Shown one piece after another: positions 4,790-34,560 of a DNA stretch of 38,364 nt (its first letter is position 1; the number at the start of each line of letters is the position of its first letter). Location of the stretch: positions 37,176-75,539 of the forward strand of contig NZ_KB235916.1 of assembly GCF_000332195.1 (NCBI RefSeq). Reading direction: 5' to 3'. The stretch comes from Pleurocapsa sp. PCC 7319. GTDB taxonomy: Bacteria; Cyanobacteriota; Cyanobacteriia; Cyanobacteriales; Xenococcaceae. The notes beneath the pieces are model-generated. The model was not told where the DNA came from. It was given only the letters and a program-made list of their open reading frames with translations, and searched no databases. Made by a program: the position numbers and the translations under genes.

Positions 4790-5094
4790 TATTTATCCTT
4801 CTCGCGCGTTCCCTTGCGCCTTTCGTCGGCGCGGGGTCGCTCGTCTTGAGGACAACAAGCTTGCATCAATTGTTCGTCTCTTTCTTCTCGCATCTGATGA
4901 ATGATTTCAGTTACAGATGGTTTAAAAGGTTTTCCACCACGACGGGCATAAATTTTTTTAGCTCTGGCAATAATTCTGTTTCGCTGTTTTTCCCAATCTG
5001 ACTGAGGTTTAAGCTTTTCTTCCAGTAATTTCTTTTCTTCTTCTGACAGAGAATTAATTACCTGGACTAAAGATTCAACCAACTTAGTATTCAT
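4789..5094 (-). CDS. Antitoxin partner of PIN toxin, with altered C-terminal tail
   Basis: A 101-residue charged helical protein (SLSEEEKKLLEEKL near residue 16; MREERDEQL near 70) directly upstream of and overlapping vapC, consistent with its antitoxin. The last ~25 residues (from QACCPQDERPRADERR on) are encoded by GC-rich DNA unlike the rest of the gene. That DNA contains a GCGCC/GGCGC inverted repeat at 4816-4832, so a small dispersed repeat appears to have inserted and supplied a new C-terminus. Whether this affects toxin binding is unknown; the reading frame stays open up to the toxin start. Confidence 0.75.
   Translation of the reverse strand: MNTKLVESLVQVINSLSEEEKKLLEEKLKPQSDWEKQRNRIIARAKKIYARRGGKPFKPSVTEIIHQMREERDEQLMQACCPQDERPRADERRKGTREKDK
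4816..4832. repeat. GC-rich small palindromic repeat
   Basis: GCGCC-TTTCGTC-GGCGC forms a 5-bp stem with a 7-base loop inside a GC-rich patch (about 4800-4860). It resembles the short dispersed palindromic elements common in cyanobacteria and overlaps the 3' end of the antitoxin gene. Confidence 0.5.
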
Positions 5095-5120
5095 CGTCTT
5101 ACAATATCAAGCTTACTTAT

Positions 5121-8042: not shown

Positions 8043-8307
8043 GAAGTTGGCAGATAGAACAACCAACCATTGTTACTTTGTTTAATACTTTGTTACATCA
8101 GGAAAAGCTCGTACATGAAAATACCAATAATTACAGTAATCTCAGCCAGCAAAGAACAATTCTTTTTTCTTACTTTTTGTAAAGCTTAATTTTTAATTTG
8201 ACGCTCTCGCAGCCAATCTGCTTTTTTATCCAAATTTTTTTGAAGGTCGGGAAGCTTTTTTCAATGGAAAGGGAATTCTTAAAATTGATCCATGAAAATA
8301 ATCACAT

Positions 8308-10303: not shown

Positions 10304-10927
10304 ATGCTTGGATTTGGAATTGACTTTGGTACAACTAACTCAGTAGCTGCTGTCTTTGATGGTAGAGAACTAACTTCTTTCGTTGATAATAATGGTCGTC
10401 CCCATCCATCCGTACTTTGGTTTAGAGGTAGTGAAAAACCAATTATTGGGCGTAAAGCCAAAGACAAGCTTAGAGATTTTGGCAATATACCAGGAAATCA
10501 ATTTATTAAGTCAATCAAAAGCCAAATTAAACAAGAAACAGAGATAGAAATATTTGGCAAAAATTATCATACTTGGCAAGTGGCAAGCGAAATATTTAGC
10601 TTTCTAAAAGAAGATGCCGTGAGAGGATACCCAGACTATCCAGAGATTAAAGAAGCAGTTATTACTATTCCTTTGTATTTCAATGGACAACAACGAAAAG
10701 CCATTCGCAAAGCTGCTGATAATGCTAACATCTTTGTCAAAAGTTTTATTCACGAACCATTTGCTGCTGTAATTGGCTATCTATTTTCCAACTCAAATTC
10801 AATAGAGAACCTCAAAACTGTCAAAGAAAACATTTTGGTTTTTGACTGGGGTGGTGGAACTTTAGATATAACTTTGGTCAAGCTAGATTCTGGAACTATA
10901 TCTGAGGTTAGGGCGAACGCATCTTAA
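10304..10927 (+). pseudogene. Hsp70/DnaK-like ATPase, truncated by ISAs1 insertion
   Basis: The first ~200 residues of an Hsp70 nucleotide-binding domain. They include phosphate-1 loop IDFGTTNS (near residue 5), the connect region VITIPLYFNGQQRKAIRKAA (near 120), HEPFAAVIGYLF, and phosphate-2 motif FDWGGGTLDITLV near 185. Full Hsp70 proteins run ~550-650 residues, so half of the ATPase domain and all of the substrate domain are missing. The frame crosses into the IS at 10909 and stops in its terminal repeat, with RANAS as the last residues. The missing 3' part is not found on the other side of the IS, nor anywhere else in the window. The operon is therefore probably inactive, unless another Hsp70 substitutes. 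Confidence 0.85.
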
Positions 10928-10965
10928 TCGTGATAAAAAAGGAGTTAGGATAAAGATATTAAAAT

Positions 10966-10984
10966 CAACTTATCTGATAAGTTG
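10966..10984 (-). terminator. Hairpin downstream of IS transposase (copy 1)
   Basis: CAACTTATC-T-GATAAGTTG is a near-perfect palindrome ~130 bases past the transposase stop. The same hairpin is kept in copy 2 (34488-34506) and the left-edge remnant (140-158). It is likely a terminator or an element-internal structural site. Confidence 0.45.
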
Positions 10985-11119
10985 AAATAAGCCTAAATAA
11001 CCCTTATATAAGAGAAAAAAAGGTGTATAAAGCTAATTTTGGCAGCTCAAAATTATGCTTGATTCTCCACTTGCTCAAACAAGCATTTCAACCAAAAAAT
11101 GAGAGATGATTGCGGGTTC

Positions 11120-12247
11120 TTAAAGACCTAAAACTTTAGCCAAATATTGATTATCCCAAGCTGCCTTGAGTCTTTTATTAGCTACACCAACCTTGGCAGT
11201 CTTTTCCCTCGATAAAAGATTCAAAGCCATCTTTCTCAATTGGGATAGGTTTTCGGGGGCATGGTCGGAGTGGACTGGAGAATCATCCTCTTTAAAAGCT
11301 ACGTCTAAGACCCAATGGACATTGTTCTCCACACCCCAATGACTGCGTACAGCATGAGCTAGTACTTGAGCATTACTGCTAAAACTGTTGAGATAATATC
11401 GTCTATTCGTTGTTGTTTCGCCATCGACTTTTCTGACAGATTCGATTAAGCCAATGCTTTGCAGACCAGACCATTTCGACTCATCAAAGAACAATTCTGT
11501 GACTGGCATTGTCCAATGACGACGTATTTCCGTTCTTCCATGACCCTTTTCGATAGTGCGATGGAAATCATGCTCTACCTCTGACCAATCACTCTCTTCT
11601 GCTTGGTCAAATAAATTTACTACCTCCTGGAAAAGATTTGGCTGATTTTCTTTCAATGCCAGACAATAATCAGCACCGTTATCTTGAATCAACTTAGCTA
11701 TCTTCGTCTGAGTCCCCATCGCATCTATAGTTACTAAGCATCCACATAGTTCTAATACCTCGATTAATTCTGGGATTGCTGTAATCTCATTGGATTTATT
11801 CTTTACCTTTGTCTGACCTAGAACCAATCTTTGTTCTGTTGCCCATGCGTTGACTATATGAATCGCTTTTTTCCCTTTGCTCTTAGAGCCAGAATGTTTA
11901 GCCGTTTTGCCATCAATACTGATTATCTCTCCTGGAATTAGTTCTGATATTGATTTGACCCAATCTCGAAAACATTGTTCAAATTCTTTTGGGTCAATTC
12001 TCGCAAATACCCTCGAAATGGTGTCATGAGAAGGAATACCATTTGGTAGTTCCAAAAACTGCTGTAACCATTCTTCTTTGGCATTTCCGTATTGTTCCAT
12101 TGCTACCCAATTATCGGCACCGCACAGCATTCCACAGATTGCAATAGCTAGAATATCGATTAGTTTATGGTCTTTGGTTCTGTCTATTCTGGGGTCGGTC
12201 AAATTGGTAAAATGATCTAACAAAGTAATCTTTGGCTTTAGCTTCAT
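11120..12247 (-). CDS. ISAs1-family transposase, copy 1
   Basis: A 375-residue DDE transposase identical in sequence to the copy at 33225-34352. Features: the DHFTNLTDPRIDR N-terminal motif, ISIDGKTAKHS carrying the first catalytic Asp near residue 113, VTIDAMGTQ near 173 carrying the second, and the C-terminal HWGVENNVHWVLDVAFKED signature carrying the catalytic Glu. Length is normal for the family and the frame is intact, so it should be active. The start has a good ribosome-binding site (AAGGGAG, 2 bases before ATG). Confidence 0.95.
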   Translation of the reverse strand: MKLKPKITLLDHFTNLTDPRIDRTKDHKLIDILAIAICGMLCGADNWVAMEQYGNAKEEWLQQFLELPNGIPSHDTISRVFARIDPKEFEQCFRDWVKSISELIPGEIISIDGKTAKHSGSKSKGKKAIHIVNAWATEQRLVLGQTKVKNKSNEITAIPELIEVLELCGCLVTIDAMGTQTKIAKLIQDNGADYCLALKENQPNLFQEVVNLFDQAEESDWSEVEHDFHRTIEKGHGRTEIRRHWTMPVTELFFDESKWSGLQSIGLIESVRKVDGETTTNRRYYLNSFSSNAQVLAHAVRSHWGVENNVHWVLDVAFKEDDSPVHSDHAPENLSQLRKMALNLLSREKTAKVGVANKRLKAAWDNQYLAKVLGL

Positions 12248-12322
12248 TCTCCCTTAGTTACGCTCTAGTTTCATACCAAATTAATTTATCATTTTCACTC
12301 AATTTAAGATGCGTTTGCCCTA

Positions 12323-13329: not shown

Positions 13330-13626
13330 ATGAGTGAAGGAAATGACCGTTTGTCTGAATTGGAAGAACTCGACGTTATTGAAGCACGTGAATTAAATGT
13401 TGGGAATTCATTTCATGCTTTTCGTTTCAAAGCTGTAGAGCCCGTCGATGAGGTTACTCGTAGCTTAATAGATAAAGCTGCAGCTACTCTAGGTATGACT
13501 TATGAGCAATTTTCAGAAATGGTTGATAATGAAGCTGTTGAAGACAATCCTCATGCAAATTTCGCTCGCGGAGTGCTTTCATCAGTAAGGACACTTGCAG
13601 CTCTTCAGCTTAAGTTGCGTGAATAA
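13330..13626 (+). CDS. Candidate RiPP precursor peptide (98 aa, Cys-free)
   Basis: A 98-residue acidic, helical protein beginning MSEGNDRLSELEELDVIEA and ending TLAALQLKLRE. It has a strong ribosome-binding site (AGGAG at 13317-13321, 8 bases before ATG), which is why I reject the longer in-frame start at 13294. It is the first gene of the operon, and its stop overlaps the likely GTG start of the radical SAM gene. Size and position fit a precursor with a leader, and the C-terminal part contains Arg, Asn, His and Asp residues that the downstream enzymes could modify. It has no Cys and no clear leader-cleavage motif such as GG. It could instead be a small accessory or recognition protein. I do not recognise its family. 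Confidence 0.55.
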   Translation: MSEGNDRLSELEELDVIEARELNVGNSFHAFRFKAVEPVDEVTRSLIDKAAATLGMTYEQFSEMVDNEAVEDNPHANFARGVLSSVRTLAALQLKLRE

Positions 13627-15643
13627 GAAAACTGACATATTACTAATTTTCCCTCCAATTACTGAAGCTCGGCTTTTTCCGTATTTAAGTTTACCATGCC
13701 TAACAGCTTATTTAAGGAAGAAGGGATTTCTAGTAGCCCAACGAGATTTAAATATCGAGTTGGGCTATGCATTGTTTGATGCTGAAATATTAAAAGGATA
13801 TGTTGATTCTATTCAAAAAGATAATACAAGGAAACAAGAGCTTAAATGGCAATTTCGAATGGAGATGGGGGCTTTTCTCCAAGCTAGACATTCTGAACTA
13901 GTTCTTGCTCTAGAAGAGAAAAAACATCCTCAATTGGATATGGGAGCAGTAGTTCGTTTCATCCGACAAGGAATCGATCTGTTGATTGAAGAATCAGCAT
14001 ATATGAATCCGCCATCTACTATTTCAGATTTATTTAAAGGGGCATTATCTTTAATTAAAGGTACCAAATTGACTGACTTGGTTTCCACAAAAACTGAAGC
14101 TCTTGTGGAAGAGGCGATTAAGTCTTTAAAGCCACGCATTGTAAGTATCTCGATTCCGTTTTATAGTCAGCTCTTTCCTAGTATTCATATAGCTGGATTT
14201 ATCAAAAAATCATGGTCTGACTGTTTAATTGTGTTAGGTGGCCCGCAAATAATGCTGCGTTACGAGGAGTTAGCAACAATACCTGGCATATCCTCTATCG
14301 TCGATGGCCTTGCAATTGGAGCAGGAGAAAAAACTCTGGAAATCCTATTGAATGTTTGTCGAGGATGCTCAGTTCCCGCTGAAGTGCCAGACTTTGTATG
14401 GACCAAACAACCTTTTCAGAATAAAATCCAACGAGTTGAAAGAATACCTCTTAACGAACTGCCAGTACCTGACTTTTCAGATCTACCTCTATGCAAGTAT
14501 TTATCCGAAGAGGTTCAACTACCGCTCATTACCTGCATCGGTTGTTATTGGGGAAAATGTTGTTTTTGCTCCTATGGAAATCGCTATTACTGGGAGAAAT
14601 CATATGAGGAAATTTCATCAGAAACCTTAGCAAATCATTGCCTTGAATTGATTAAAAAATATAATGTTAAGAGAATAAATTTTGTAGATGAAAATACAAA
14701 TCTGAAGCTTGTTCTTGCTGCTGTAAAGCTGGTTGAGAAAAATGGAGAAAGGATCAGATTTTCTACTCGCAATCGATTGGACTCAGTGCTCCTTGATTTC
14801 AACTTCTGCTCAGAGCTGGCTAAAAGGGGGTGTGTGCTTATGTCAGCTGGCTATGAAACAAATTCACAACGGCTTCTCAATCTCATGAACAAAGGTATTA
14901 AGGCATCAAATTACCAAAAAATTATTAACAACTTGCATAGAGTTGGTATTCCTCTTCGGCTTTCGGTAATGGGTGGACTCTTCGATGAAACTGCTGAAGA
15001 GGTTCGAGCATCAGTTGCATTTCTTAAAAAGAATTCAAATAAGATTGGTATTGATGTGATGCAAATGCTCGTGGCTGAACCTAAGACATTTTTGGAAAAA
15101 AATCCTGAACAATATAAGTTAGCGCTTTCGAATCATGAAGAGCTTCGTGGCAATAAGCTACTTAATTTTTGTCTGGGTAGAATGGGCAGAAAGATACTCT
15201 ATAATAACGGTGATACCTTTAATGAAAGGCTCGAAGAATTCCTCTCATTCTATTATAAAGTTGATCCGCAGATGAATGATGAGTTATACCCACCTTTACG
15301 CAATAAAAAACAAGGTCAACCATTTTCTCAGGCGGAAAAACTCAAAAAAAATAAATCGCTATTAAAAGAGGAACATGAAGAGAGTAAGAATCTCCAAGGT
15401 CTTATTCTTCTTTTGAAACCTTGGATAAGAGTCATTTCATTAGAGATTGAAGAAATAACTCGTCAAATGCTTATTGATCTATTGTGGCAGAAGTATTATC
15501 TTCTACCTTCAACAGTTGGTTTTGACAGAAGAAAGAATGTACTCTTTACTGATAGTTCAGGAAAGGGTAATCCAGTCTTGTTACAGTTAGAGTCCCTAGA
15601 CACAGGACAGATATGCAAAGGGAGAAAATCTGATGTTGATTGA
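13619..15643 (+). CDS. B12-binding radical SAM protein
   Basis: About 674 residues. The N-terminal part is a cobalamin-binding Rossmann fold (DILLIFPPITEAR; VSISIPFYSQLFPSIHIAGF; LIVLGGPQIMLRYEELA; GAGEKTLEILL). The radical SAM core follows, with cysteines in CIGCYWGKCCFC near residue 305. This is the variant with an aromatic WG insert and a CxFC ending, similar to the CWWG...CxFC form seen in RiPP-maturation B12 enzymes. The C-terminal ~90 residues (LKPWIRVISLEIEE on) are a separate small domain. Such enzymes often C-methylate peptides or make C-C links. The GTG at 13619 overlaps the previous gene's stop by 8 bases; a TTG at 13595 is the alternative start. The 3' end overlaps the MNIO gene by 11 bases. 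Confidence 0.85.
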   Translation: MNKKTDILLIFPPITEARLFPYLSLPCLTAYLRKKGFLVAQRDLNIELGYALFDAEILKGYVDSIQKDNTRKQELKWQFRMEMGAFLQARHSELVLALEEKKHPQLDMGAVVRFIRQGIDLLIEESAYMNPPSTISDLFKGALSLIKGTKLTDLVSTKTEALVEEAIKSLKPRIVSISIPFYSQLFPSIHIAGFIKKSWSDCLIVLGGPQIMLRYEELATIPGISSIVDGLAIGAGEKTLEILLNVCRGCSVPAEVPDFVWTKQPFQNKIQRVERIPLNELPVPDFSDLPLCKYLSEEVQLPLITCIGCYWGKCCFCSYGNRYYWEKSYEEISSETLANHCLELIKKYNVKRINFVDENTNLKLVLAAVKLVEKNGERIRFSTRNRLDSVLLDFNFCSELAKRGCVLMSAGYETNSQRLLNLMNKGIKASNYQKIINNLHRVGIPLRLSVMGGLFDETAEEVRASVAFLKKNSNKIGIDVMQMLVAEPKTFLEKNPEQYKLALSNHEELRGNKLLNFCLGRMGRKILYNNGDTFNERLEEFLSFYYKVDPQMNDELYPPLRNKKQGQPFSQAEKLKKNKSLLKEEHEESKNLQGLILLLKPWIRVISLEIEEITRQMLIDLLWQKYYLLPSTVGFDRRKNVLFTDSSGKGNPVLLQLESLDTGQICKGRKSDVD

Positions 15644-16601
15644 TAGATTTCCTTTAATAACCAAAAGGTTGGGGCTCGGTATGGGATTAGACATGCCTTG
15701 GAGTCGTTATTCTAAAGGTTTTAGATTTAATTCTGATGCTGGAGATTCAATTTCCGATGAACTCAAACATTTTTTTAACCTCTATCGTCAAGACTTCAAT
15801 TATATCTTTTTGGCATTTCAGCCTCGAGGTCGCAGTTTGTTACACGCTGAAGACTATTTTGCTGCTTACGATCAGTTTTTCTCAACTTTTGAACATGGCC
15901 ATCAACGAGTACGAGCATTGCATCACACACTATTGAACTTAGGAAGTATAGAGCACTATGACAAAGCACAGATTGTAGAGTTTACCAATCTCTTGATTAA
16001 TCGCTACCAGTTCATGTGGATAGTCGAGGATTTAGGTATCTGGTCTTTGCACGGCAAATCTTTACCATATCCACTACCTCCATTCCTCACTCAGGATGGA
16101 CTTAATTCTTGCATTGAGAATGTTAAAACTTATCAAAACGAACTTCATGTTCCACTTTGCGTTGAGTTTCCTGGATTCACAGAAGGAAATTCGTTTTACA
16201 TTGGCGATTTGGATGCCTTCGATTTCTTTGCAGAAGTGTCTCGTGCTACAGGTTGCCCTGTAACTATCGATGTTGGGCATATACTAAGCTATCAATGGTT
16301 ACATGGAAGATATGGTAAGCGTCAAATAGAGGGACTTGAGCGTCTTCCACTCGATCACTGTTTCGAGTTACATCTTTCTGGCTGCAGTATTGTTAATGGC
16401 AAATTCAGAGATTTACATAACGGTATCCTTATGGACGAGCAACTCGAGGTTCTCGAGTATCTCCTCGATAATTGTCCTAATCTTAAAGCAGTAACTTATG
16501 AAGACCCACGTTTTACTCGAGATGGTTATATTATCCCTCGCGCACAGAAAAACTATGAAATCCTTAAGATGACAGTAGCTGATTGGGCGGAGACACTATG
16601 A
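15633..16601 (+). CDS. DUF692 multinuclear iron oxygenase (MNIO, MbnB-like)
   Basis: A 322-residue TIM-barrel protein of the DUF692/MNIO family, whose members use two or three iron atoms and O2 to rearrange peptide residues (methanobactin MbnB and relatives). Family landmarks in order: LGLGMGLDMP near residue 14, YQFMWIVEDLGIW near 128, LCVEFPGF near 175, VTIDVGHILSYQWLHG near 210, FELHLSG near 246, RDLHNG near 259, and VTYEDPRF near 287. Several positions differ from the common MNIO consensus (VEDLG where SEHLS is usual; EFPG where ENP is usual), suggesting a divergent subgroup. The start has GGAG 8 bases upstream. It overlaps the radical SAM gene before it and, by ATGA, the gene after it. 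Confidence 0.85.
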   Translation: MLIDRFPLITKRLGLGMGLDMPWSRYSKGFRFNSDAGDSISDELKHFFNLYRQDFNYIFLAFQPRGRSLLHAEDYFAAYDQFFSTFEHGHQRVRALHHTLLNLGSIEHYDKAQIVEFTNLLINRYQFMWIVEDLGIWSLHGKSLPYPLPPFLTQDGLNSCIENVKTYQNELHVPLCVEFPGFTEGNSFYIGDLDAFDFFAEVSRATGCPVTIDVGHILSYQWLHGRYGKRQIEGLERLPLDHCFELHLSGCSIVNGKFRDLHNGILMDEQLEVLEYLLDNCPNLKAVTYEDPRFTRDGYIIPRAQKNYEILKMTVADWAETL

Positions 16602-17476
16602 TTCAAAAAGTAATTTCAAAAAACAAATCAAATTCTTCAAAGGCTGTTATAAGTAGCGAAAATATCAAATACCTTGAACTACCTGAAGTACTCTATCAGC
16701 TAATTTATCATCACTCATTCAGGAAACAATTTTTGAAAAACGAATGGAGCAATCTTCCAATTAAACCTTCTGATAAAGAACATTTAAGTCATATTGATAC
16801 ACGAGAACTTGTAAAAATGTCAAATCAGATTTGCCGTGAGTTACTTTATGGCAAGGAATTTGGGAAGTCTGGGTTAATTCAATATTTTTCGAATACATTT
16901 AAATGCTTATCTGCCTATGGTCAGAACGCTAAGTTTATAGTCCAAGATTTCATGGAATCAGAAGCTTTTCGTGATAGCAGAGATGTAGAGTTTGCCGGGC
17001 AAGGGATATCTCTTGAAGAAGCGTTCTACCTATATTTATCTCAGAATAGAATTTTTATGTCTGCCACTAAGAAAAACCGATTTTGGTTACAACATGATTT
17101 TCTTAAGTCATTATTATCTTTATTAGTTATTAATCAAGAACCGAACTTTAGAGTATTGTCTTCATTGATTCAGCAAAATAGTGTTTGCTACTATTCCCTA
17201 CCTCTTTATCCATCTTCATTCGTATCTCTCATACATCCAAAGCTTCTCAACAAGTCTAATGATAATCATAAAGTGTGTTTTTTATATGCCGCATCTTCTG
17301 ATACATTTGTTTCGGGACCAATTCACGAAGTAGCCAGGGATATGCTTGCGTTAAATGATATTGCCTCAATTTATAGTGAAGGCATCAATCTCGCCAAGAA
17401 GTTCAATATTACTTTTAACGATATTTTATACTTAGCGAAGAAATTGACAACTCTTGGACTCTTAAAAGACAATTGA
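16598..17476 (+). CDS. Unknown protein, probable MNIO partner
   Basis: A 292-residue protein that I do not recognise. The ATG at 16598 overlaps the MNIO stop (ATGA), with GGAG upstream, so it is translationally coupled; the in-frame start at 16583 adds only five residues. The N-terminal half is helical and resembles in style the small helical partners (MbnC-like or DUF2063-like) that bind the leader peptide for MNIO enzymes. The last ~50 residues (MLALNDIASI ... LTTLGLL) look like a winged-helix or RiPP-recognition-element fold. Assignment as MNIO partner or leader-recognition protein rests mainly on its position directly behind the MNIO gene. No metal or catalytic motif was seen. Confidence 0.45.
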   Translation: MIQKVISKNKSNSSKAVISSENIKYLELPEVLYQLIYHHSFRKQFLKNEWSNLPIKPSDKEHLSHIDTRELVKMSNQICRELLYGKEFGKSGLIQYFSNTFKCLSAYGQNAKFIVQDFMESEAFRDSRDVEFAGQGISLEEAFYLYLSQNRIFMSATKKNRFWLQHDFLKSLLSLLVINQEPNFRVLSSLIQQNSVCYYSLPLYPSSFVSLIHPKLLNKSNDNHKVCFLYAASSDTFVSGPIHEVARDMLALNDIASIYSEGINLAKKFNITFNDILYLAKKLTTLGLLKDN

Positions 17477-17481
17477 ATTCT

Positions 17482-18711
17482 ATGAACCCAATTGTAGTGT
17501 TTCAAGAGCATGGAGAAATACTTGCTTACTGGTGTGAGCGTCGATACCTTAAGGAAACTGTAATTTGTTTCGACAGACACCTTGATTTAAAAAAGATACC
17601 ATCTCAGCAGGTTTTACGTCTTCTAGCAGTAAAGAATGATCCATTAGCTATAAGGTCACTTAACCGCGACATTCCATTCCGTGATGATGATATGTTTGCA
17701 TATGGACTTGACAACTTTGTGTATGCAGCGATAACACTTAACTATATAAATCGATTCATCTGGGTGGTTCCCGAATTGCATTCAATATCTACAAGAGATT
17801 TAGCCATAATACTTTGGGATCAGTTATCTCTTATTCCTGATCACGGAAATGAAATTATTGAAACCTTCTGTAGAAGTAGTTTTTCTGCTAAAGCAAATAT
17901 CAAAAACGTTTCTATTGAAATTACCACTTTATCTCGACTTCCTTACATAACTAACATAAGTAATTCACATATAGATATAGATTTAGACTTTTTTTGTAAC
18001 CCCATTGGCGACTTAGAACATACCGCTGAAGACTTAGTTCAAACTCTTGTAAAAATGGGAGTACATAGACAAGTTGAATCAATTACTTATTCCATTTCTA
18101 GTGGTTTTCTGCCTTCGCAATATCGGTATTTAGCTGATGCTATTACTAATTTGCTAGACAGAAATATTGATTTGCGATCAATAGGACGCAAACATGCTTC
18201 TAGAAGCCTAGGGATAATTGCTACGGGCAAAAATATAGAGGACCAAATTTTGGATGAGTTATGGACTGATGAACTAAGAATACTTGGAGCTTCAGGCTGG
18301 TCTCTACGTGCATTGCTTGAGGCACGTATGGGTAAACTTTCTGCATCTACATCTTCATACTATACTGCTCGCTTAGCTGGTGATCGTGCGACTTGGGCTG
18401 CTTATGTGATTGGGATGGAATTCTTAAAGCGCGGTGATTATGCTACTGCTGAGTCTTGGTTTCAAGAAGCAAGTATAGAAATTATCGATACAATTCAGTC
18501 GCACGCATTAATTATGCATACCTTGTGCTTATGCCGTAGTAGAAAGATGGAAATTGCACTTAAGAGAGCTCGGGTATGTTTTCTGCGCATACCAATGTGT
18601 ATTCAAGCCTACAAACTTGGTGCTATCGCTGCAGAAAGTCTATGTGTTAAAGACTGTTCAGACTGGTGTCAAGCTCAAATCAAAAATCTTAAATTAATAT
18701 CGCAACAATGA
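17482..18711 (+). CDS. UPF0489-family peptide arginase (OspR-like) with C-terminal repeat domain
   Basis: A 409-residue protein. The N-terminal ~200 residues have the arginase/deacetylase-fold signature of UPF0489: QEHGEILAYW near residue 9, the metal-binding FDRHLDL near 30 (DxHxD), and HIDIDLDFFCNP near 163 (DxDxxxF). UPF0489 members such as OspR in cyanobacterial RiPP clusters hydrolyse peptidyl arginine to ornithine plus urea. The C-terminal ~180 residues (DELWTDELRIL, RGDYATAESWFQEA, MEIALKRARVCF) look like TPR helices, an extension that plain OspR-type enzymes appear to lack and that may bind the precursor. It begins 5 bases after the preceding gene and overlaps the next by ATGA. The start at 17482 replaces a TTG three codons upstream. 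Confidence 0.75.
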   Translation: MNPIVVFQEHGEILAYWCERRYLKETVICFDRHLDLKKIPSQQVLRLLAVKNDPLAIRSLNRDIPFRDDDMFAYGLDNFVYAAITLNYINRFIWVVPELHSISTRDLAIILWDQLSLIPDHGNEIIETFCRSSFSAKANIKNVSIEITTLSRLPYITNISNSHIDIDLDFFCNPIGDLEHTAEDLVQTLVKMGVHRQVESITYSISSGFLPSQYRYLADAITNLLDRNIDLRSIGRKHASRSLGIIATGKNIEDQILDELWTDELRILGASGWSLRALLEARMGKLSASTSSYYTARLAGDRATWAAYVIGMEFLKRGDYATAESWFQEASIEIIDTIQSHALIMHTLCLCRSRKMEIALKRARVCFLRIPMCIQAYKLGAIAAESLCVKDCSDWCQAQIKNLKLISQQ

Positions 18712-20909
18712 TTAATTTTTTTCTGAAAGATATTGACAGGGATCTTTTTTTTAATGAATTTTGGCGAAGAAAGCCGCTGTATATCTCCAATGGATTTAAA
18801 GAGTTCTGCACTCATCTGTATACAGAAAGTGAGCTTACTCATTTAGCGAATCTACTCGAAAAACGAAAACCTGGCTTTGTTCGCCATGATAGTGATCGTG
18901 CTACTTTTGCTCAGAATATAGATAGCGTCACTCCCAAGTTAGAAGAACTGGTCGCATGTATTGCCTCACACCTAGGTTGGCGTAATACATGGCTTGATGC
19001 ATCAATCATGAAAGACAACGCTAGCATTGGGTGCCATTATGACGATAGCGACAACTTTATCATGCAGCAGCAAGGTGTCAAAATATGGAAAATACATCCC
19101 CCTAATATAATCCCCGATAGAGAGTTGAAGCAACGTATGCTCGGAGATCCTACTGTTGGTAATATCTATATGCCTGATAATGCTCTAGAATTCGTTCTTA
19201 AACCTGGTGACATTCTTTACGTACCTATTTTTTGGCCGCATTGGGGAGTCTCTGCAGGATGTTCATCAAGCTTATCAGTCGTGTGCAATTCTAGCAATGC
19301 AATTCAGGAACTACTGCCACTGCTTATTCGAAATTTGATAGAAGTACCTTTATGGTGGCAACCTTTACCGTACTCATTAAGAACTAACTTTTCATCAAAT
19401 ACTAAAGAGGATCAGCAACAAATTTACAGTATTCTATCTAAGCTTTTAGAATCGCTAACTGACTCTTCTCTCCAAAAGAACCTTGTAAGTGAATATACGA
19501 ATGCTAGGCAGCTAAAAAATAAAAAAAACTATTATTCAAAAATGGTTATGAATGAAACTAATAATGTCATATTAGGACGAACATCTGAGTCTTCTTGCAA
19601 AGCTGAGATGACTTTCGATTTTGACAAGCTAAACAATATCTTTTCAAATAAATGCTCTGACATTAATCTTGGCGACTTGGTAATCCCTTCCGCAGATAGA
19701 AGTTCTAGTAATCGGCTCAAGCGCCTGACTTCTTTGCTTTATCTTAAACGACTCCTAACTACTTGTCATCGCTTGTACCTTGCATTACAAGATGAGGCTC
19801 ATGAGTGTTCCCTATTAAAACTAATAACTAATTTTCAATGCTTACCTGAGCATGTCATTCTTGATGAAGTTTTTAGGCCCGAAATAATATCTTGGATTAT
19901 CTATACTAATGAAGCTATTCAGTTTTCATATAAGCCTCAACTTGAACTTCTAGTTCGGCATCTTGGTTCATTTCTCTTATCTTCACTCTTAATGGAGAAT
20001 GCTTTAAAGCTAGGTGAAAGCTTAATAATATCGCCAACCACACGATGTTCACTTGAGCTGCGATCAATGGGATACCGTATCTCATTTACTAAAAATCTTC
20101 CTGAAAAACTTAAAGTGACACGAACCTTATCTGGTTTGGCAATAAACAATGCAGATGGACAGTTTATAGATGAGATAGAGTTACCTCTGAAATCTGAAGA
20201 AAGTAATTCAAGTTCTACAGTAGTTTACTGGAATAAAATTCCACATTTACTCAATGATGGACCTATCTTATTACAAAGGCATAATTGGTACGAAAACTTT
20301 TTCCCATCAGATTCAAAAAAACGAATTTGTCCAATTCACTTTGATATTTCTGATAGAGAGTTTGAATATTTTTCTGATTGCATGAGCGATGGAGCAAGAA
20401 TTATTTTTCAATATTTTCCCGATACTTGGAGTAGAATTACTGCATTTATTCAAGCAATTGCTCCTCTAAATTCGCAAGGAATGATGCCTCACAATGCTAG
20501 TATAGAAGGATTTCGAGGTTTAATTACATCCAGCCCACGACCATCTTATCTTGCGGCCCAAACTCTTTGCCATGAAACAGGGCACAACATATTTAGTTCA
20601 ATTTCTGATGTCTTCAAGCTTTTCAATAATGATATTTCCACAATGGCTTACTCACCTTTCGTTGAGGAAATGCGTCCTCTTAATACATTGGCACATGGAA
20701 TTTTTGCCTTTCTGCAAGATATACATCTATCTCTGCGCATCCGAGATCATATAGACCAGATAGATGAACTCTCAATTGAACGATACATTGAAAAAACAAG
20801 TAAGAAAGTTCAACAAGGTCTTAATAACTTGAAAAGAAAATCTAATTTAACTATTCATGGAGATCAAATGATTTCTGGTTTTGATGAAGCACTGTCAGTT
20901 ATTCAGTAA
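18708..20909 (+). CDS. Fusion of JmjC-like 2OG oxygenase and HExxH-type peptide modification domain
   Basis: A 733-residue protein with two probable oxygenase modules. Residues ~1-220 are a JmjC/cupin-4 ribosomal-oxygenase-like domain: FWRRKPLYI near 19, the iron triad start CHYDD near 108 (HxD), KIWKIHPP near 127, and VPIFWPHWGVS near 175 supplying the second His. Residues ~400-733 carry CHETGHNIF near 621 (HExxH) and then FVEEMRPLNTLAHGIFAFLQD. This matches the 'HExxH motif-containing putative peptide modification protein' family, some members of which are 2-oxoglutarate-dependent peptide beta-hydroxylases. I know of no described protein joining these two modules. The middle (~230-400) is helical and unassigned. 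ATGA overlap with the arginase gene shows coupled translation. It might hydroxylate two sites or act sequentially. Confidence 0.8.
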   Translation: MINFFLKDIDRDLFFNEFWRRKPLYISNGFKEFCTHLYTESELTHLANLLEKRKPGFVRHDSDRATFAQNIDSVTPKLEELVACIASHLGWRNTWLDASIMKDNASIGCHYDDSDNFIMQQQGVKIWKIHPPNIIPDRELKQRMLGDPTVGNIYMPDNALEFVLKPGDILYVPIFWPHWGVSAGCSSSLSVVCNSSNAIQELLPLLIRNLIEVPLWWQPLPYSLRTNFSSNTKEDQQQIYSILSKLLESLTDSSLQKNLVSEYTNARQLKNKKNYYSKMVMNETNNVILGRTSESSCKAEMTFDFDKLNNIFSNKCSDINLGDLVIPSADRSSSNRLKRLTSLLYLKRLLTTCHRLYLALQDEAHECSLLKLITNFQCLPEHVILDEVFRPEIISWIIYTNEAIQFSYKPQLELLVRHLGSFLLSSLLMENALKLGESLIISPTTRCSLELRSMGYRISFTKNLPEKLKVTRTLSGLAINNADGQFIDEIELPLKSEESNSSSTVVYWNKIPHLLNDGPILLQRHNWYENFFPSDSKKRICPIHFDISDREFEYFSDCMSDGARIIFQYFPDTWSRITAFIQAIAPLNSQGMMPHNASIEGFRGLITSSPRPSYLAAQTLCHETGHNIFSSISDVFKLFNNDISTMAYSPFVEEMRPLNTLAHGIFAFLQDIHLSLRIRDHIDQIDELSIERYIEKTSKKVQQGLNNLKRKSNLTIHGDQMISGFDEALSVIQ

Positions 20910-20918
20910 AAAAACGCG

Positions 20919-22046
20919 ATGGATGGTTTTTGGCAAAACACATTATATTATCATTCGAATGAAGGTTGTTTCTTTCAGATTCGAAAAGGTACTCACAGAA
21001 AGGTTGGTCTTAAAAGTTTCTCTGATCTCGAGCGTGACGCCAATAATGCTGTCTCAGATATAAGACTTCTTGTGAAAGACTCTAGGCCTTGGATAGAAAA
21101 ATTCTCGCTCGAGATAAGCTCAAGCTGTACACACAAAAACAATCCTAGAGGACAATTATATATTCGAAGCGATAATCATTTAGTCATTAACTTCATTGTA
21201 CGAGGCTCGGTAGCTCTCACTCCAGTACGTTGGCAATGTTCTGGGGAAAGCCTTCTAGAAAAACTAAATAGAGACTTTAAATCAAGTATACACTCAGAAA
21301 TACAAGCTGCAATATTAGGAACTCATCTCACTCAACGATTGAGATGTCCAGTAATCTTTGATCCTTGGCTAGCATGTCAGCTCATTCATGAGTGCATCGG
21401 ACATACTTCAGAAGCCGATAATTTTTTCTCATATGCATATCCAAAGGGTTTTGACCTTGGCTACACCTGGTGTTCTTACCCTATTAATGTCTTTGACGAT
21501 TCATCCCTACCGGAACATCGAGGCAGCTATACTTACGATGATGACGGAGAGTTATCTCGTTGTGCCAAGCTAGTCTCAGATGGTCAATGGACTGATCTTT
21601 TAGTTAGTTCAGAATATAAGAAAAAGTTGGGAATCCAAGCTGGACACGGAAGGCGTGTAGTTTATGCTCGACATTGCTTACCACGAATGTGTAACACATG
21701 GCTTCAATCTGGCAAAGAAACTTTACGAGAACTTATATCAACTGTAGACTACGGTCTCTTTTGTGGCGGAACATGGGGTGGAGGGTCATTGGGGACGAAT
21801 TTTATTTTACGCCCAGCCTATGGTATTTGGATAGAATCGGGAAAGCTTACGAATCGTTTCGTACGACGATTTGATATTTTAGGAAATAAATTCGAAACTA
21901 TCAGAAACATAATAGGAGTGTCAGATCATGTAAGTTGGTTTTCTCCAGTGTACGGATGTGACAAATTTGGGCAAAATAATCTGCCAGTTACCATGGGCTC
22001 TCCTCATATACTACTTGAGTCAGTTGACATTTCTCCCATACTATGA
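20919..22046 (+). CDS. TldD/PmbA-family metallopeptidase, probable leader peptidase
   Basis: A 375-residue protein with the TldD zinc motif HECIGHTSEADNF near residue 156 (HExxxH with a following Glu). Family-typical segments follow: HRGSYTYDDDGE (near 203), LISTVDYGLFCGGTWGG, NKFETIRNIIGVSDHV, and the C-terminal GSPHILLESVDISP. TldD/TldE proteases digest unfolded or modified peptides and remove leaders in microcin B17 and other RiPPs. This one is shorter than E. coli TldD (about 480 residues) and has no TldE partner in the window, so it may act as a homodimer. It starts 9 bases after the previous gene. Its last 43 bases overlap the acetyltransferase gene on the other strand. Confidence 0.85.
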   Translation: MDGFWQNTLYYHSNEGCFFQIRKGTHRKVGLKSFSDLERDANNAVSDIRLLVKDSRPWIEKFSLEISSSCTHKNNPRGQLYIRSDNHLVINFIVRGSVALTPVRWQCSGESLLEKLNRDFKSSIHSEIQAAILGTHLTQRLRCPVIFDPWLACQLIHECIGHTSEADNFFSYAYPKGFDLGYTWCSYPINVFDDSSLPEHRGSYTYDDDGELSRCAKLVSDGQWTDLLVSSEYKKKLGIQAGHGRRVVYARHCLPRMCNTWLQSGKETLRELISTVDYGLFCGGTWGGGSLGTNFILRPAYGIWIESGKLTNRFVRRFDILGNKFETIRNIIGVSDHVSWFSPVYGCDKFGQNNLPVTMGSPHILLESVDISPIL

Positions 22047-22639
22047 GCCTCTTCTAGAAAAAGTGCCATTAGACAGTCATCAACGTATTTACCTTCTTGA
22101 TTGCGTACAAAACACTTTCTGATTCCTTCTATTTCAAATCCTAAGCTATCATACAGGTGTCTTGCTCTCAAGTTATCGATTTGAACACCTAATTCAACAC
22201 GCACAATCTGAGGATTTTCAGTGTGCTTTGCCCAATCAAGAAGATACTCCATAAGCGCACGACCAATGCCAATGCCTTGCTTCAAAGGATGAACCCCAAT
22301 TGAAATACTAGCTACATGGCGAACATACTTGGGGATTAAGCGCTCTATTTGACAATATCCCACAACTTCCCCCTCATATTCTGATACAGCAAAACAAATA
22401 TTTCTCTCAGCATCTTCAGCTTCTAAGATTTCTTTAAGACGTTCACTATATTCTTCATCGGAATTTGGGATATCTTCAATACCTTGAACAACTCCGACAC
22501 CTGCATTAATGATCGCGAGTTCAGTATAGCGTAGAATCGCCGCATCTTCTATTGTAACTGGGCGAATTATTAGGCTGCTCCCATCTGATAAGTACTTGTG
22601 TCTTACTCTTGAATCCCGTAAAAAATTTCTTTCCGACAT
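22004..22639 (-). CDS. GNAT-family N-acetyltransferase (RimI-like)
   Basis: A 211-residue GNAT protein. IRPVTIEDAAILRYTE starts the domain near residue 25, the acetyl-CoA loop is QGIGIGRALMEYLLDWA near 125, and ARHLYDSLGFEIEGIRK is the classic C-terminal motif. It is convergent with the TldD gene and overlaps it by 43 bases. It may be a self-resistance or tailoring enzyme for the peptide product (for example acetylating ornithine or the N-terminus), or an unrelated neighbour. The opposite strand and lack of co-transcription argue for caution. Confidence 0.85.
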   Translation of the reverse strand: MSERNFLRDSRVRHKYLSDGSSLIIRPVTIEDAAILRYTELAIINAGVGVVQGIEDIPNSDEEYSERLKEILEAEDAERNICFAVSEYEGEVVGYCQIERLIPKYVRHVASISIGVHPLKQGIGIGRALMEYLLDWAKHTENPQIVRVELGVQIDNLRARHLYDSLGFEIEGIRKCFVRNQEGKYVDDCLMALFLEEAHSMGEMSTDSSSI

Positions 22640-23818: not shown

Positions 23819-24121
23819 TTAAGTAGAAGATTCAATTGGTACAAAATTAATCTCTACCTTATATCCAACAGCCTGGGCATATTCTTCGATAGTTGAGAGC
23901 TTTGGAGATGAGGGCGAATGAACATTTTCCAAACGAGAAATATTGCTCTTTTGTGTCTGTAGAATTTCTGCTAATTCCTCTTGAGTTAAACCTGCTGTTT
24001 TTCTTAGGGCAATAAGTTTCTTTCTGAGATCGTAAGCTAGGGTAAGAGCTTCGTATTTTTCTCCTACTTCACTATTGGCTAAAGCTTTTTCTTTAAATTT
24101 AGCAAATGTTGGACGTGTCAC
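23819..24121 (-). CDS. higA: HTH-type antitoxin, HigA-like
   Basis: A 100-residue protein with an XRE-type helix-turn-helix (LRKTAGLTQEELAEILQTQK, then SNISRLEN) in the middle and a short C-terminal tail. It follows the toxin gene with a 4-base ATGA-type overlap, the toxin-first order typical of HigBA. It should neutralise HigB and repress the module's promoter through the inverted repeats upstream (24450-24467). Confidence 0.88.
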   Translation of the reverse strand: MTRPTFAKFKEKALANSEVGEKYEALTLAYDLRKKLIALRKTAGLTQEELAEILQTQKSNISRLENVHSPSSPKLSTIEEYAQAVGYKVEINFVPIESST

Positions 24122-24441
24122 TTTTTTAACTCCTTCATACGTTTTTTTGCCAAGTCCAATTCTTTCTTTGGTGTTTTTTGCGACTTTTTAATAAAGGAAT
24201 GCAAAATGATAATTTCTCTTCCTTTGACCATACAGTAGAGAGAGCGACCAATACCTTCCTTACCTTTTGACCTTATTTCAAAAAGTCCTCCACCTATTGA
24301 AGCTGTGTATGGTTTACCAAGAGCCGGACCAAACTCTTCAATCATCTCCGCAATGTGCAAAAAATTAGCCAGGATGCCTGGTGGAAAGTCTAAGGTTGTT
24401 TGTTCCACTTTCTTGTTGTAGAAAGTAATTTGCCACTTCAT
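24118..24441 (-). CDS. higB: HigB-like RelE-superfamily toxin (Gp49 type)
   Basis: A 107-residue basic protein: EEFGPALGKPYTASIGGGLFEIRSKG, then GIGRSLYCMVKGREIIILHSFIKK, and a C-terminal KKELDLAKKRM helix. This is the phage-derived Gp49-like/HigB pattern, a ribosome-dependent mRNA interferase. It is the first gene of the module, with the antitoxin overlapping its 3' end. On a plasmid next to parA it most likely acts in post-segregational stabilisation. Confidence 0.88.
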   Translation of the reverse strand: MKWQITFYNKKVEQTTLDFPPGILANFLHIAEMIEEFGPALGKPYTASIGGGLFEIRSKGKEGIGRSLYCMVKGREIIILHSFIKKSQKTPKKELDLAKKRMKELKK

Positions 24442-24467: not shown

Positions 24468-24621
24468 TTTTCGACGATGCTGAGTTCAACTAAATAGTTT
24501 TTGGTGCAGAGAACAAGTTTTAGTTTTAACTATAAATCATTACATCATTATTTATAGATTTACAGACAATTGTATATCATTAAAAAATGATAACCTGACA
24601 TGTGTATTGACTTTAATACTA

Positions 24622-24670
24622 CTATCAGTTAAAACTGATGTGCTGTTAGCAGTAAATAAAGATCGAATGA
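24622..24670 (+). repeat. 49-bp direct repeat, copy B, overlapping the parA start
   Basis: The partner of 23666-23714. It contains TCAGTT-AA-AACTGA and CTG-TTAG-CAG and ends at the parA start codon (ATG at 24667). It probably carries the parA ribosome-binding and operator sequence; its RHH partner protein may bind the palindrome. Confidence 0.6.
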
Positions 24671-25308
24671 CGAAGGTAATAACTCTCTGTACCACCAAAG
24701 GAGGAACGAGTAAAACGTCATTAACTGCCAGTTTGCTTTCCTACTGGCATAGTAAAAAGAGGCGTGTTGCGGCGGTGGATGCCGATCCTAACTGTAATCT
24801 CACTCGCTGGCTTGATAAAGGTAGTCTTTCAGATCTTCGCCACGTAGCAGAAACCAATGAAGGGGAAATTATTGAAGCAGTGGAAAATATTTCCACAGAT
24901 CGAGATCTGGTCTTAGTAGATGTAGCGGGGTTTGGTAATCAATCAATGGTCTATGCCATAGGTATATCTTCCTTTGTGATCATACCTTGCCGACCCTCAG
25001 AAGATGATGTTTTAGAAGCACTTAAAACTAAACAGGTAGTAACTAATGCCGCTAAGTTAACCCGTCGGGAGATTCCTTATAAAGTGGTGTTAACTCAGGT
25101 AAAAGCTGGGACGCTAGTTATCAATCACACTCACAAACAGTTTCAAGCTTTCAATGTTCCTTTATTTGATACGGCGATCGCTAGTCGTACCATCTATCAA
25201 ACCTCTCGATTTAGTGGAGAAACACCCATTACCGCAGAACCACAAGGTAAGGCAGCTAAAGAAATTGCTGCATTAGCTAAAGAGATAGAAGTACAGTTAA
25301 GCTTATAG
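24667..25308 (+). CDS. parA: ParA-family partition ATPase
   Basis: A 213-residue P-loop ATPase: deviant Walker A TTKGGTSKTS near residue 9, VDADPN near 40, and VLVDVAGFG (Walker B region) near 80. It is a small ParA/ParF-type protein without an N-terminal DNA-binding domain. Plasmids with such ParAs pair them with a ribbon-helix-helix centromere-binding protein, which is the next gene. I use the ATG at 24667 because the longer frame from 24607 runs through the 49-bp repeat and lacks family similarity. Confidence 0.92.
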   Translation: MTKVITLCTTKGGTSKTSLTASLLSYWHSKKRRVAAVDADPNCNLTRWLDKGSLSDLRHVAETNEGEIIEAVENISTDRDLVLVDVAGFGNQSMVYAIGISSFVIIPCRPSEDDVLEALKTKQVVTNAAKLTRREIPYKVVLTQVKAGTLVINHTHKQFQAFNVPLFDTAIASRTIYQTSRFSGETPITAEPQGKAAKEIAALAKEIEVQLSL

Positions 25309-25362
25309 TCTTAAATACTTTTAACTATATGTAATGATAAAAGCATGTAAAAAGGTAATGAT

Positions 25363-25641
25363 ATGAGTAAAAAGAATAGTTTGGGAAATGTAGACGTAAC
25401 TGCGTTAGAAGGTTTAGCCTCCAGCTTCCCACCCACACAGCCATCAACCCTAAAATCAACCAAAGGTAAGCCAGAAAAGGACGTGACCATTACCCTGAGA
25501 ATTCCACCAAGGATAGCCAAGGACTTAAGAATTAAAGCTGCCACAGCCGACAAAACTCAGAGGGAGTTTATTTTGGAAGGATTAAAACTAATGGGAATTG
25601 ATGTCAAAGATGAAGATATTGCCGATCGCCGTAAGAGTTAG
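25363..25641 (+). CDS. Ribbon-helix-helix partner of ParA (ParB/ParG-like)
   Basis: A 92-residue protein. The N-terminal ~45 residues are flexible and Pro/Ser/Thr-rich. They are followed by a ribbon-helix-helix domain (VTITLRIPPRIAKDLRIKAA, then DKTQREFILEGLKLMGI). It is 54 bases downstream of parA in the same direction. By analogy with ParF/ParG systems it should bind the centromere and repress the operon. The family is diverse, so the role is inferred from context. Confidence 0.75.
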   Translation: MSKKNSLGNVDVTALEGLASSFPPTQPSTLKSTKGKPEKDVTITLRIPPRIAKDLRIKAATADKTQREFILEGLKLMGIDVKDEDIADRRKS

Positions 25642-25812
25642 TTATACAGCAATATCTTGCGTGATGGCTTTAGCAGTGCGACCGCATCACACCAAATGAT
25701 TTAATATTTGACTCATTTTTCTATTTGACTCACTTCTCCTAGGTAGTCAAAGGTAATTGATAACATAGAAATAGAGTATTTGGTAATTTCTAATTGAGAA
25801 TAATCAGAAGCA

Positions 25813-26034
25813 ATGGGTTTTAAAGAATTAATTCAAACTGAATTAGAATTTCTCTCAGAAGATGAGTTACAAGAGTTATATGAATTGGTAAAAAGTCGAA
25901 GTCAAAAATATAAGAATAACCATGATGATTTGGGTGAATTATTAGAACGCTGTAAGATTCATACAGGAATTTCTGATCTTTCAGCTCAGCACGACCATTA
26001 TTTATATGGCACTGACAAAAAGGAAGTCGAATAA
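25813..26034 (+). CDS. Small antitoxin of a PIN-toxin module
   Basis: A 73-residue acidic helical protein (LEFLSEDELQELYELVKSR). Its stop directly abuts the GTG start of the PIN toxin gene, a classic module arrangement. No DNA-binding domain is obvious. Assigned as antitoxin by position and size. Confidence 0.7.
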   Translation: MGFKELIQTELEFLSEDELQELYELVKSRSQKYKNNHDDLGELLERCKIHTGISDLSAQHDHYLYGTDKKEVE

Positions 26035-26454
26035 GTGAATCAAGTTTTTGTCGATACTGCTGCTTGGATTGCACTACTAAATATCGATGATGTTTGGCAT
26101 CAAAAAGCACATATAGTTCGTTCGGAGTTGGTAGATAAAAATTATATCTTTATCACAACAGATTTTATTCTACTGGAGGTTGCAGATGCTCTTTGTTTGC
26201 CAATACATAAAAAAAATACTGTTAATTTTTTGCGTAATATTTATCAATTGAAATCTACAAGGGTAATACCGTTAAATCAAGATTTATTTCAGTCGGGCTT
26301 GAGTTTATATGAAAAAAGACTGGATAAGGATTGGGGGCTAACGGATTGTATTAGTTTTGTGGTGATGCAAAAGGAAGGAATTTTAGAAGCATTTACTTCA
26401 GACAAACACTTTGAACAGGCTGGTTTTGCTCGTTTATTAAAACCAAAAGTTTAG
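26035..26454 (+). CDS. vapC: PIN-domain toxin, VapC-like (GTG start)
   Basis: A 139-residue PIN-domain protein. VDTAAWIALLN at the N-terminus carries the first Asp, LLEVADAL near residue 49 the conserved Glu, and WGLTDCISFVVM plus FTSDKHFEQAGF the C-terminal acidic residues. The GTG start immediately follows the antitoxin stop. A second such module in this window (after 4364-5094), probably for plasmid maintenance. Confidence 0.88.
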   Translation: MNQVFVDTAAWIALLNIDDVWHQKAHIVRSELVDKNYIFITTDFILLEVADALCLPIHKKNTVNFLRNIYQLKSTRVIPLNQDLFQSGLSLYEKRLDKDWGLTDCISFVVMQKEGILEAFTSDKHFEQAGFARLLKPKV

Positions 26455-26466
26455 GAGATAGCGATG

Positions 26467-30021: not shown

Positions 30022-30024
30022 ACC

Positions 30025-30049
30025 ACACCTCCCAAGTCACAAGAGGTGT
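30025..30049. promoter_or_regulatory. Hairpin upstream of the replication gene
   Basis: ACACCTC and GAGGTGT form a 7-bp stem around an 11-base loop, embedded in a longer CCACAC...GTGTGG pairing, directly before the start of the replication protein. It may control translation or be a leader RNA structure. A second inverted repeat, GGTTCACC/GGTGAACC, follows at 30155-30188. Confidence 0.5.
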
Positions 30050-30154
30050 TCTTGAAGTGTGGTGGTAGCGAATTCTGTAGCGATTGCAGTCGTCCAGATG
30101 GATAATTTTGGTAGTTTGTACGATAATCCTGATTAGAAATGAATTTTTTCATGG

Positions 30155-30188
30155 GGTTCACCTGTTTGTATTGTTTGCGGGGTGAACC
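30155..30188. repeat. GGTTCACC/GGTGAACC inverted repeat
   Basis: 8-bp arms separated by 18 bases, ~135 bases upstream of the replication-gene start. It may be an operator or part of the origin. Confidence 0.4.
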
Positions 30189-30550
30189 TTCTATTTGTTA
30201 TGGAAGTAACTTTGTACTGAAGAAAGTTGGCGAATCTAGCTAGTGCTGACTCAATACTTCAAGTTATAGGTATCTTTATTGATTGGTTATGTCTGGGAAA
30301 AGGTTAAAGGTCTTCATCAGGGTCAAGGGTCAAGCTACTTCTGAGCGGGGAAAGGAAGATTCATCTGCTACTTGCGTAGACCTTTGTTCCTTTGTTTCTT
30401 TCCCCTTTATAAGCCTTTATAAGAATCTACTTACGTCGTTAGCTCTACCTTATTCCTTTGTATCTAAGCCTTTTTCCTAACATCATCAGTTAATAAAAAT
30501 TTTTTCTACGAGAAGTATTGACTGCCATCCTTCCTAAACATCAATAATTA

Positions 30551-30652: not shown

Positions 30653-30912
30653 TAGTTGGGCTGAAAAACAAAGTTACTCCAGCAAGTAGAAGGCATCAAG
30701 TCACTTTTTTTTGTGACTATAGTTATTTACGTCAACTGGTAGCTGCTGTTTTGGCTCTTCAGGTTTAAGTTTGTTGAAAAACATTTAATCTGCTCCTTTT
30801 TTTTGGCTGACTCTATTATTAACTCTCTTTGACTCTATTTACTAGGGTTTAAGAAGAGTTAATCCGAAAATTCCAGCTATGAGTTTTGATTGTCGAGGTA
30901 GAAGAAATCATT

Positions 30913-34506: not shown

Positions 34507-34560
34507 ATTTTAATATCTTTATCCTAACTCCTTTTTTATCACGATTAAGATGCGTTCGCC

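Follow-up and report, generated by a model that had tools for sequence, protein, structure and literature searches.

What does the operon within a 38,364-nucleotide stretch of the cyanobacterium Pleurocapsa sp. PCC 7319 (contig NZ_KB235916.1, positions 37,176 to 75,539; this whole stretch is called the window here) encode, and is its pathway a new one? The operon occupies positions 13330-22046 on the plus strand and consists of seven open reading frames (ORFs), all of them open and without interruption, tightly packed through ATGA junctions or short contacts, just as the original prediction, made from the letters alone, had described. That prediction assigned the operon to the ribosomally synthesised and post-translationally modified peptides (RiPPs), which the precursor motif and the gene-by-gene homology to biphenomycin loci bear out. 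It also presented the pathway as apparently new, its full enzyme set being unrecognised, and in this it was mistaken, since the full set is that of the biphenomycin pathway, described in 2025 in passages of two reports (PMC12257519; PMC12707348), and the precursor contains FHAFRF. The list of domains looked new because this pathway had been published very recently. Thus, this cyanobacterial operon is almost certainly a RiPP gene cluster of the biphenomycin type.

According to passages of these reports, an MNIO and a partner carrying a RiPP recognition element (RRE) form ortho-tyrosines in the biphenomycin pathway, a TPR-arginase generates ornithine, a B12-radical S-adenosylmethionine (SAM) enzyme couples the rings and a JmjC enzyme hydroxylates ornithine; an HExxH hydroxylase is present in the biphenomycin A producer, together with a TldD-type protease without TldE (PMC12257519; PMC12707348). 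FHAFRF is given as the precursor motif of the family in a passage of PMC12257519, and in the searched literature the word is used only by the Journal of the American Chemical Society paper and its preprint. Role by role, the published operon content matches the genes of the window.

The 98-aa product of the first gene was proposed as the likely precursor in the original prediction, and this has been borne out by FHAFRF at amino acids 28-33 and by a conserved leader. The leader, LEELDVIEARELNVGNS (aa 1-27), stands directly ahead of the motif, which is followed by 65 residues, and it is 43-59% identical (blastp) to the precursors of five Streptomyces loci, with E values from 7e-13 to 2e-6 in four of them and of 1.5e-4 in S. 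griseorubiginosus. Both traits sought in a biphenomycin-type precursor, FHAFRF and a conserved leader, are therefore found, and the predicted core, as read from the sequence, is F31-R32-F33 (nt 13420-13428). An AGGAG Shine-Dalgarno-like sequence accompanies the gene, and the protein has no match in Pfam or NCBIfam. No paralogue of it was found in its own genome, the one further match having an E value of 1.23; a second FHAFRF pattern match in this genome (G000:C4:183156) lies on the strand opposite a longer ORF and was discarded as a candidate precursor.

Related loci come from a scan for the pattern AFHAFRF with Arg encoded by CGN, which demands Ala before FHAFRF, a position where the window itself has Ser; the loci span at most 8,000 bases each, and a neighbouring cluster outside a locus, or one in other taxa, may be missed. 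At least 118 genome-contig loci and 20 viral-contig loci were obtained. Homologues of several operon proteins (phmmer, E <= 0.01) occur in 6 of the 118 genome loci listed and in none of the 20 viral ones, a proportion that is not a frequency, owing to the scan listing, the Ala and CGN requirements and the locus size; the remaining 132 loci provide an internal control for matches that arise by chance. All six, among the matches listed, are Streptomyces: Streptomyces sp. NBC_00083 (L245), S. inusitatus, S. morookaense, S. spinoverrucosus, Streptomyces sp. DHE7-1 (L227) and S. griseorubiginosus DSM 40469 (L229/L261). The precursors of L229 (NZ_KQ948737.1:936001-944000) and L227 (JACJDG010000003.1) both end in AFHAFRFRS.

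Larger regions were compared for five of the six loci, Streptomyces sp. DHE7-1 being left out. S. griseorubiginosus DSM 40469 has homologues of all seven window genes, the fused gene of the window being represented by two, and a 41-aa precursor with the end FRFRS; the precursor of strain No. 43708 of this species, a known biphenomycin producer, is also of 41 aa and ends in FRFRS (PMC12707348). The S. inusitatus region revealed no JmjC gene, and those of S. morookaense and S. spinoverrucosus no HExxH gene. The order in Streptomyces sp. NBC_00083 is precursor-radical SAM-MNIO-partner-arginase-JmjC-MFS-HExxH-TldD, identical to that of the window apart from the MFS gene, on either side of which JmjC and HExxH are there encoded separately; its precursor is of 45 aa. 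The co-conservation that the original prediction set as a check is thus seen in Streptomyces loci, whereas no second cluster was seen among the genomes sampled from the phylum of the host.

As regards the published clusters, bip/bpm of S. griseorubiginosus No. 43708 and S. filipinensis NRRL 3217, as described in passages of PMC12707348 and PMC12257519, shares with the window the FRF core, the B12-radical SAM enzyme, the MNIO, its RRE partner, the TPR-arginase, the JmjC and HExxH enzymes and the lone TldD protease; the sequence comparison made here used another strain of the first species, DSM 40469 (L261). In bip/bpm the order is A-MFS-arginase-radical SAM-MNIO-partner-JmjC-HExxH-TldD, the precursor has 41 aa and each hydroxylase is a protein of its own (PMC12707348), whereas the window has no MFS gene, the order radical SAM-MNIO-partner-arginase, fused hydroxylases and a 98-aa precursor. 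The pbs cluster of Peribacillus simplex BE23, compared by description only from passages of PMC12257519, has FHAFRF precursors followed by radical SAM, MNIO, partner and arginase genes in the order of the window; it differs in that it has four precursors, an MFS gene and a cupin hydroxylase (PbsQ) that stands separate, and lacks an HExxH homologue.

The modifying enzymes, whose positions are collected in Table 1, can be assigned one by one. The radical SAM enzyme is 35-37% identical over ~650 aa to the homologues of L245/L246 and 25-30% identical to those of L247/L248/L261, and the cluster motif GC(Y/F)WG(K/R)CxFC is common to all of them; the identity to five FHAFRF loci and this shared motif identify it as a B12-radical SAM enzyme. 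The MNIO is 50-53% identical over ~312 aa to the MNIOs of five Streptomyces FHAFRF loci. The 297-aa protein, left unexplained in the original prediction and with no Pfam or NCBIfam match, is likely the MNIO partner: it occupies the same gene position as its Streptomyces counterparts, with 23-29% identity (five loci, blastp), and TglI is the best Protein Data Bank (PDB) match of its model. An MNIO of the biphenomycin group with its partner is thus recognised from pairwise identity, gene position and the TglI-like partner model.

Table 1. Genes of the operon, with positions in the window and the evidence for each assignment.
Feature	Position	Strand	Evidence
BipA-type precursor peptide, 98 aa	13330..13626	+	FHAFRF, leader identity to Streptomyces BipA-like peptides
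B12-radical SAM enzyme, BipD/PbsB type	13619..15643	+	PF04055, homology, shared cluster motif
MNIO, BipE/PbsC type	15633..16601	+	PF05114 (65 bits), homology
RRE-containing MNIO partner, BipF/PbsD type, 297 aa	16598..17476	+	
TPR-containing peptide arginase, BipC/PbsE type	17473..18711	+	metal motifs, homology
JmjC (BipG type) fused to alpha-ketoglutarate-HExxH (BipH type), 733 aa	18708..20909	+	JmjC_2, TIGR04267, homology
TldD-type metalloprotease, BipI/PbsP type	20919..22046	+	PF19289, homology, motifs

The arginase is a prediction from sequence, based on its metal motifs and on its alignment with five Streptomyces homologues, to which it is 26-34% identical. The published motifs are EEHxE, DxHxD and DIDLD (PMC12707348), and those of the window read QEHGE, DRHLD and DIDLDFF. 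In the alignment DRHLD is invariant, two homologues have EHGH, and DIDLD becomes DLDLD or DVDLD in two. The protein was counted as a TPR-arginase despite the variation in its motifs; its TPR_1 match is weak, below the Pfam cut-off.

In the fused protein, the JmjC part (aa 1 to ~250; JmjC_2, 58 bits in Pfam) is 31-41% identical to four JmjC genes, and the alpha-ketoglutarate-HExxH part (aa ~290-730; TIGR04267, 47.3 bits against an NCBIfam cut-off of 40) is 25-36% identical to three HExxH genes. The motifs GCHYDDSDN/HWGV and HETGH are present, and both the JmjC GCH(F/Y)D with its distal His and the HExxH are kept in the alignment with the Streptomyces homologues, those of S. griseorubiginosus having been checked by motif search and not by alignment. 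The two putative hydroxylases of the pathway are thus contained in one protein. The TldD-type protein (116 bits) is 29-35% identical to five Streptomyces homologues, with HECIGH and YGCDKFGQ in place and with HExxGH and the later Cys kept in the alignment; no second TldD/PmbA protein (TldE) was found among the operon genes and 10 further genes of the window, the part of the genome covered by this search, so that the protease stands there alone.

The packing of the genes is equally regular. The precursor gene overlaps the radical SAM gene by 8 nt when the latter starts at GTG 13619 (GTGAATAA), which was preferred over the TTG 13595 of the ORF list because it best fits the Streptomyces homologues. 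The MNIO begins at ATG 15633, 11 nt before the end of the radical SAM stop at 15643; ATGA junctions follow at 16598 (MNIO and 297-aa gene) and 18708 (arginase and JmjC-HExxH). The 297-aa gene and the arginase have a 4-nt overlap (TTG 17473) or a 5-nt gap (ATG 17482), and the TldD gene starts 9 nt past the JmjC-HExxH stop.

The gene content, homology, order and motif conservation observed in the window allow every reaction, the order of the reactions and the product to be predicted. Thus, the leader of the precursor would bind the RRE of the 297-aa partner and the MNIO would ortho-hydroxylate both Phe of FRF to ortho-tyrosine; the arginase would convert Arg32 to ornithine, and the B12-radical SAM enzyme would join the two ortho-tyrosine rings by a biaryl C-C bond. 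The JmjC half would then hydroxylate ornithine (gamma) and the HExxH half the C-terminal ortho-tyrosine (beta), and the lone TldD-type protease would trim leader and tail, releasing the core. Ornithine, hydroxylated residues and an MNIO-altered residue, all expected in the original prediction, are likewise predicted from homology to the biphenomycin enzymes. Pseudocobalamin is commonly made by cyanobacteria and might stand in for B12 in the radical SAM enzyme.

The order of the ortho-tyrosine, ornithine, biaryl and gamma-hydroxylation steps differs between passages of PMC12257519 and PMC12707348. By analogy with these pathways, the predicted product is biphenomycin A, a close analogue of it, or a form that still carries residues at one end. 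The calculated [M+H]+ is 469.256 for unmodified FRF and 459.224 after double hydroxylation and ornithine formation, the masses reported for the corresponding species being 469.25 and 459.22 (PMC12707348); for biphenomycin B and biphenomycin A it is 473.203 and 489.198, respectively.

Several points weigh against the assignment to the biphenomycin family. The chemistry at this locus is a prediction from the genes. In the domain list of the original prediction, radical SAM, MNIO, JmjC_2 and TldD (Pfam) and HExxH (NCBIfam) score above their cut-offs, whereas the B12-binding domain reaches 23.5 bits against a Pfam cut-off of 32.1, and the UPF0489 profile (PF12640), the family to which PbsE is assigned in a published passage, has no match in the whole genome at E <= 10; the homologous arginases of L245 and L247 also lack a PF12640 match at E <= 0.1. 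The first Glu of the arginase motif EEHxE is replaced in the window. The similarity of the MNIO partner is low, the confidence of its model is middling and no Foldseek match appears at E <= 0.001. The long tail of the precursor is absent from all six Streptomyces precursors. No MFS transporter was found among the operon genes or 10 further genes of the window, whereas this accessory gene is present in four of the four Streptomyces loci tested; biphenomycin chemistry has been reconstituted without the transporter in passages of the published work.

Among the alternatives, that which survives best is a sub-case of the biphenomycin-type cluster, in which the product is longer or differently hydroxylated, either because the tail, or part of it, is retained or because one oxygenase half is inactive or has another target. 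The long tail means that trimming and product may differ from those of biphenomycin A, since 65 residues follow FHAFRF in the window and 2-10 in the precursors of the six Streptomyces loci; PbsP, in contrast to BipI, did not remove the C-terminal part (a passage of PMC12257519), and the fusion of the oxygenases was not seen in the compared loci. However, the window retains the FRF core and the catalytic motifs in each half of the oxygenase, and BipI trimmed both ends regardless of the follower sequence (PMC12707348). A differing product is a serious possibility, although not the one that we would expect. The tail is predicted as three helices (block pLDDT 68-82) and has no Pfam match. Two other matches of it were taken as chance, one in the PDB (E 0.99) and a weak one (E 0.033) in 1 of 140 other genomes of the phylum, in an ORF unlike a RiPP precursor.

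The fused oxygenase has its closest parallel in Streptomyces sp. NBC_00083, with whose separate HExxH protein residues 292-729 of the window protein align, and the fusion may have arisen by loss of the intervening MFS gene. In S. griseorubiginosus the JmjC and HExxH genes are adjacent, in different frames, and thus the fusion may instead derive from such an arrangement. In a search of 386 genomes of the phylum (E <= 0.001), the fused protein matches 23 besides its own, 22 with JmjC only and one with HExxH only; five of 295 Streptomyces genomes match at E <= 1e-15, four of them already obtained from the motif scan, and two of the five have both domains, in separate frames. No JmjC-HExxH fusion was therefore seen in these 386 and 295 genomes, in many of which scoring was confined to two or three top candidates, and others may exist elsewhere. 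A bolder proposal is that a photosynthetic bacterium makes a biphenomycin-class antibiotic by a streamlined pathway, in which one fused JmjC-HExxH protein, arisen at a lost transporter gene, would carry out both late hydroxylations in sequence, and a folded three-helix follower would serve a novel purpose, for example to mask the peptide where the cluster has no exporter; as a whole, this is improbable on present evidence.

A second alternative is that the cluster was acquired, lies decayed or silent between insertion sequences and makes nothing. Two copies of a DDE transposase element (10907-12322 and 33150-34565; 1416 bp, 100% identical, inverted) bracket 20.8 kb that hold, besides the operon, a ParA-like gene, a relaxase and an ORF resembling an integrase, and a further 160-bp piece of the element (88%) lies at 57-216. 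Moreover, no transporter gene was found in the operon, the radical SAM orthologue is present in 1 of 388 genomes of the class, its own, and promoter-like sites are no more frequent than expected by chance (32, with 35.2 in shuffled sequences). On the other hand, all seven frames are open with tight overlaps, the catalytic motifs examined are present, and the G+C content of the operon (37.4%) is close to that of the window (38.4%), which makes a decayed or silent cluster quite unlikely.

The weakest alternative, the RiPP pathway unrelated to known ones of the original prediction, is barely credible: no orthologous cluster was found among the genomes sampled from the phylum and the specific NCBIfam radical SAM and MNIO models match far below their cut-offs, but FHAFRF, the leader conservation and the gene-by-gene homology link the operon to S. 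griseorubiginosus and five other Streptomyces loci. Aminopyruvatide (apy) biosynthesis also combines a B12-radical SAM enzyme and an MNIO, but on the window the ApyD model scores 52 bits (cut-off 750) and the ApyH model 48 bits (cut-off 400), and ApyHI acts on a C-terminal Asp (a passage of PMC12452194), in contrast to the predicted FRF core of the window. The aminopyruvatide (ApyD) and C-methyltransferase (TIGR03975) readings were dropped because of scores far below the cut-off.

The distribution of the biphenomycin-type cluster was followed in overlapping samples of phylum, order and class genomes, in many of which scoring was confined to the two or three top candidates of a first look at each genome. 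No orthologue of the MNIO was found beyond its own genome in 386 genomes of the phylum (next best 44.6 bits against 762.6), and none of the radical SAM enzyme in 388 of the order (52.3 against 1542) or, at E <= 1e-20, in 388 of the class. Around 20 hand-chosen MNIO, radical SAM or HExxH matches from the phylum, some on short contigs, no second operon gene was found (phmmer, E <= 1), and single-protein scans with sequence-specific patterns, for the radical SAM enzyme on viral contigs and the MNIO on genome contigs, gave nothing. Among plasmids, tblastn retrieved 11 records with the radical SAM enzyme, 20 with the MNIO (24-30% identity in the 10 of these 20 that were listed) and none with the precursor. 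Seven of the 11 (H1-H5, H10 and H11) gave radical SAM-type matches only at phmmer E <= 0.01, and no FHAFRF-like motif in ORFs of at least 30 aa.

In the literature, the string "cyanobacteri" is absent from the available main texts of PMC12257519 and PMC12707348, whose supplements may list cyanobacterial clusters, and from that of the MNIO landscape paper PMC12452194, and none of the retrieved passages on biphenomycin and cyanobacteria reports such a cluster. Taking into account that over 1,000 pathways of a similar kind are mentioned from diverse organisms (PMC12707348), and that the supplements may include cyanobacterial ones, no claim of a first cyanobacterial case is made. The pathway itself is known; the novelty lies in the host lineage, within the reach of these searches, in the fusion of the oxygenases and in the tail of the precursor. 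A seemingly unknown operon is thus placed in a defined antibiotic pathway, and biphenomycin-type biosynthesis is extended to Cyanobacteria; its variations, the BipG-BipH fusion and the helical follower, lend themselves to direct testing, and the fused oxygenase may be of use as a biocatalyst.

Regarding the surroundings, a GNAT acetyltransferase gene on the minus strand (22004-22639) is convergent with the operon, its end overlapping that of the TldD gene, and could provide self-protection by acetylation. Two small overlapping minus-strand ORFs at 23819-24441 resemble, by eye, a HigB/XRE-type toxin-antitoxin pair, and a ParA/VirC1-like protein, an origin-binding-like helicase and a MobA/VirD2 relaxase are encoded at 24607-32247. 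The 75,539-base contig, which stands beside a 6.39-Mb contig, may thus be a plasmid; comparison of its two ends revealed no sequence of at least 30 bases common to both. At 338-8066 the window encodes two components of an anti-phage defence system of the Hma type, one HmaC-like (1098 bits) and one HmaB-like (1232 bits). Outside the window, the same contig carries two adjacent photosynthetic reaction-centre genes (PF00124; L252:6843-9825), a Piwi-domain protein (L253:17720-19027) and TIR-domain and WD40-repeat proteins (L253:664-5257).

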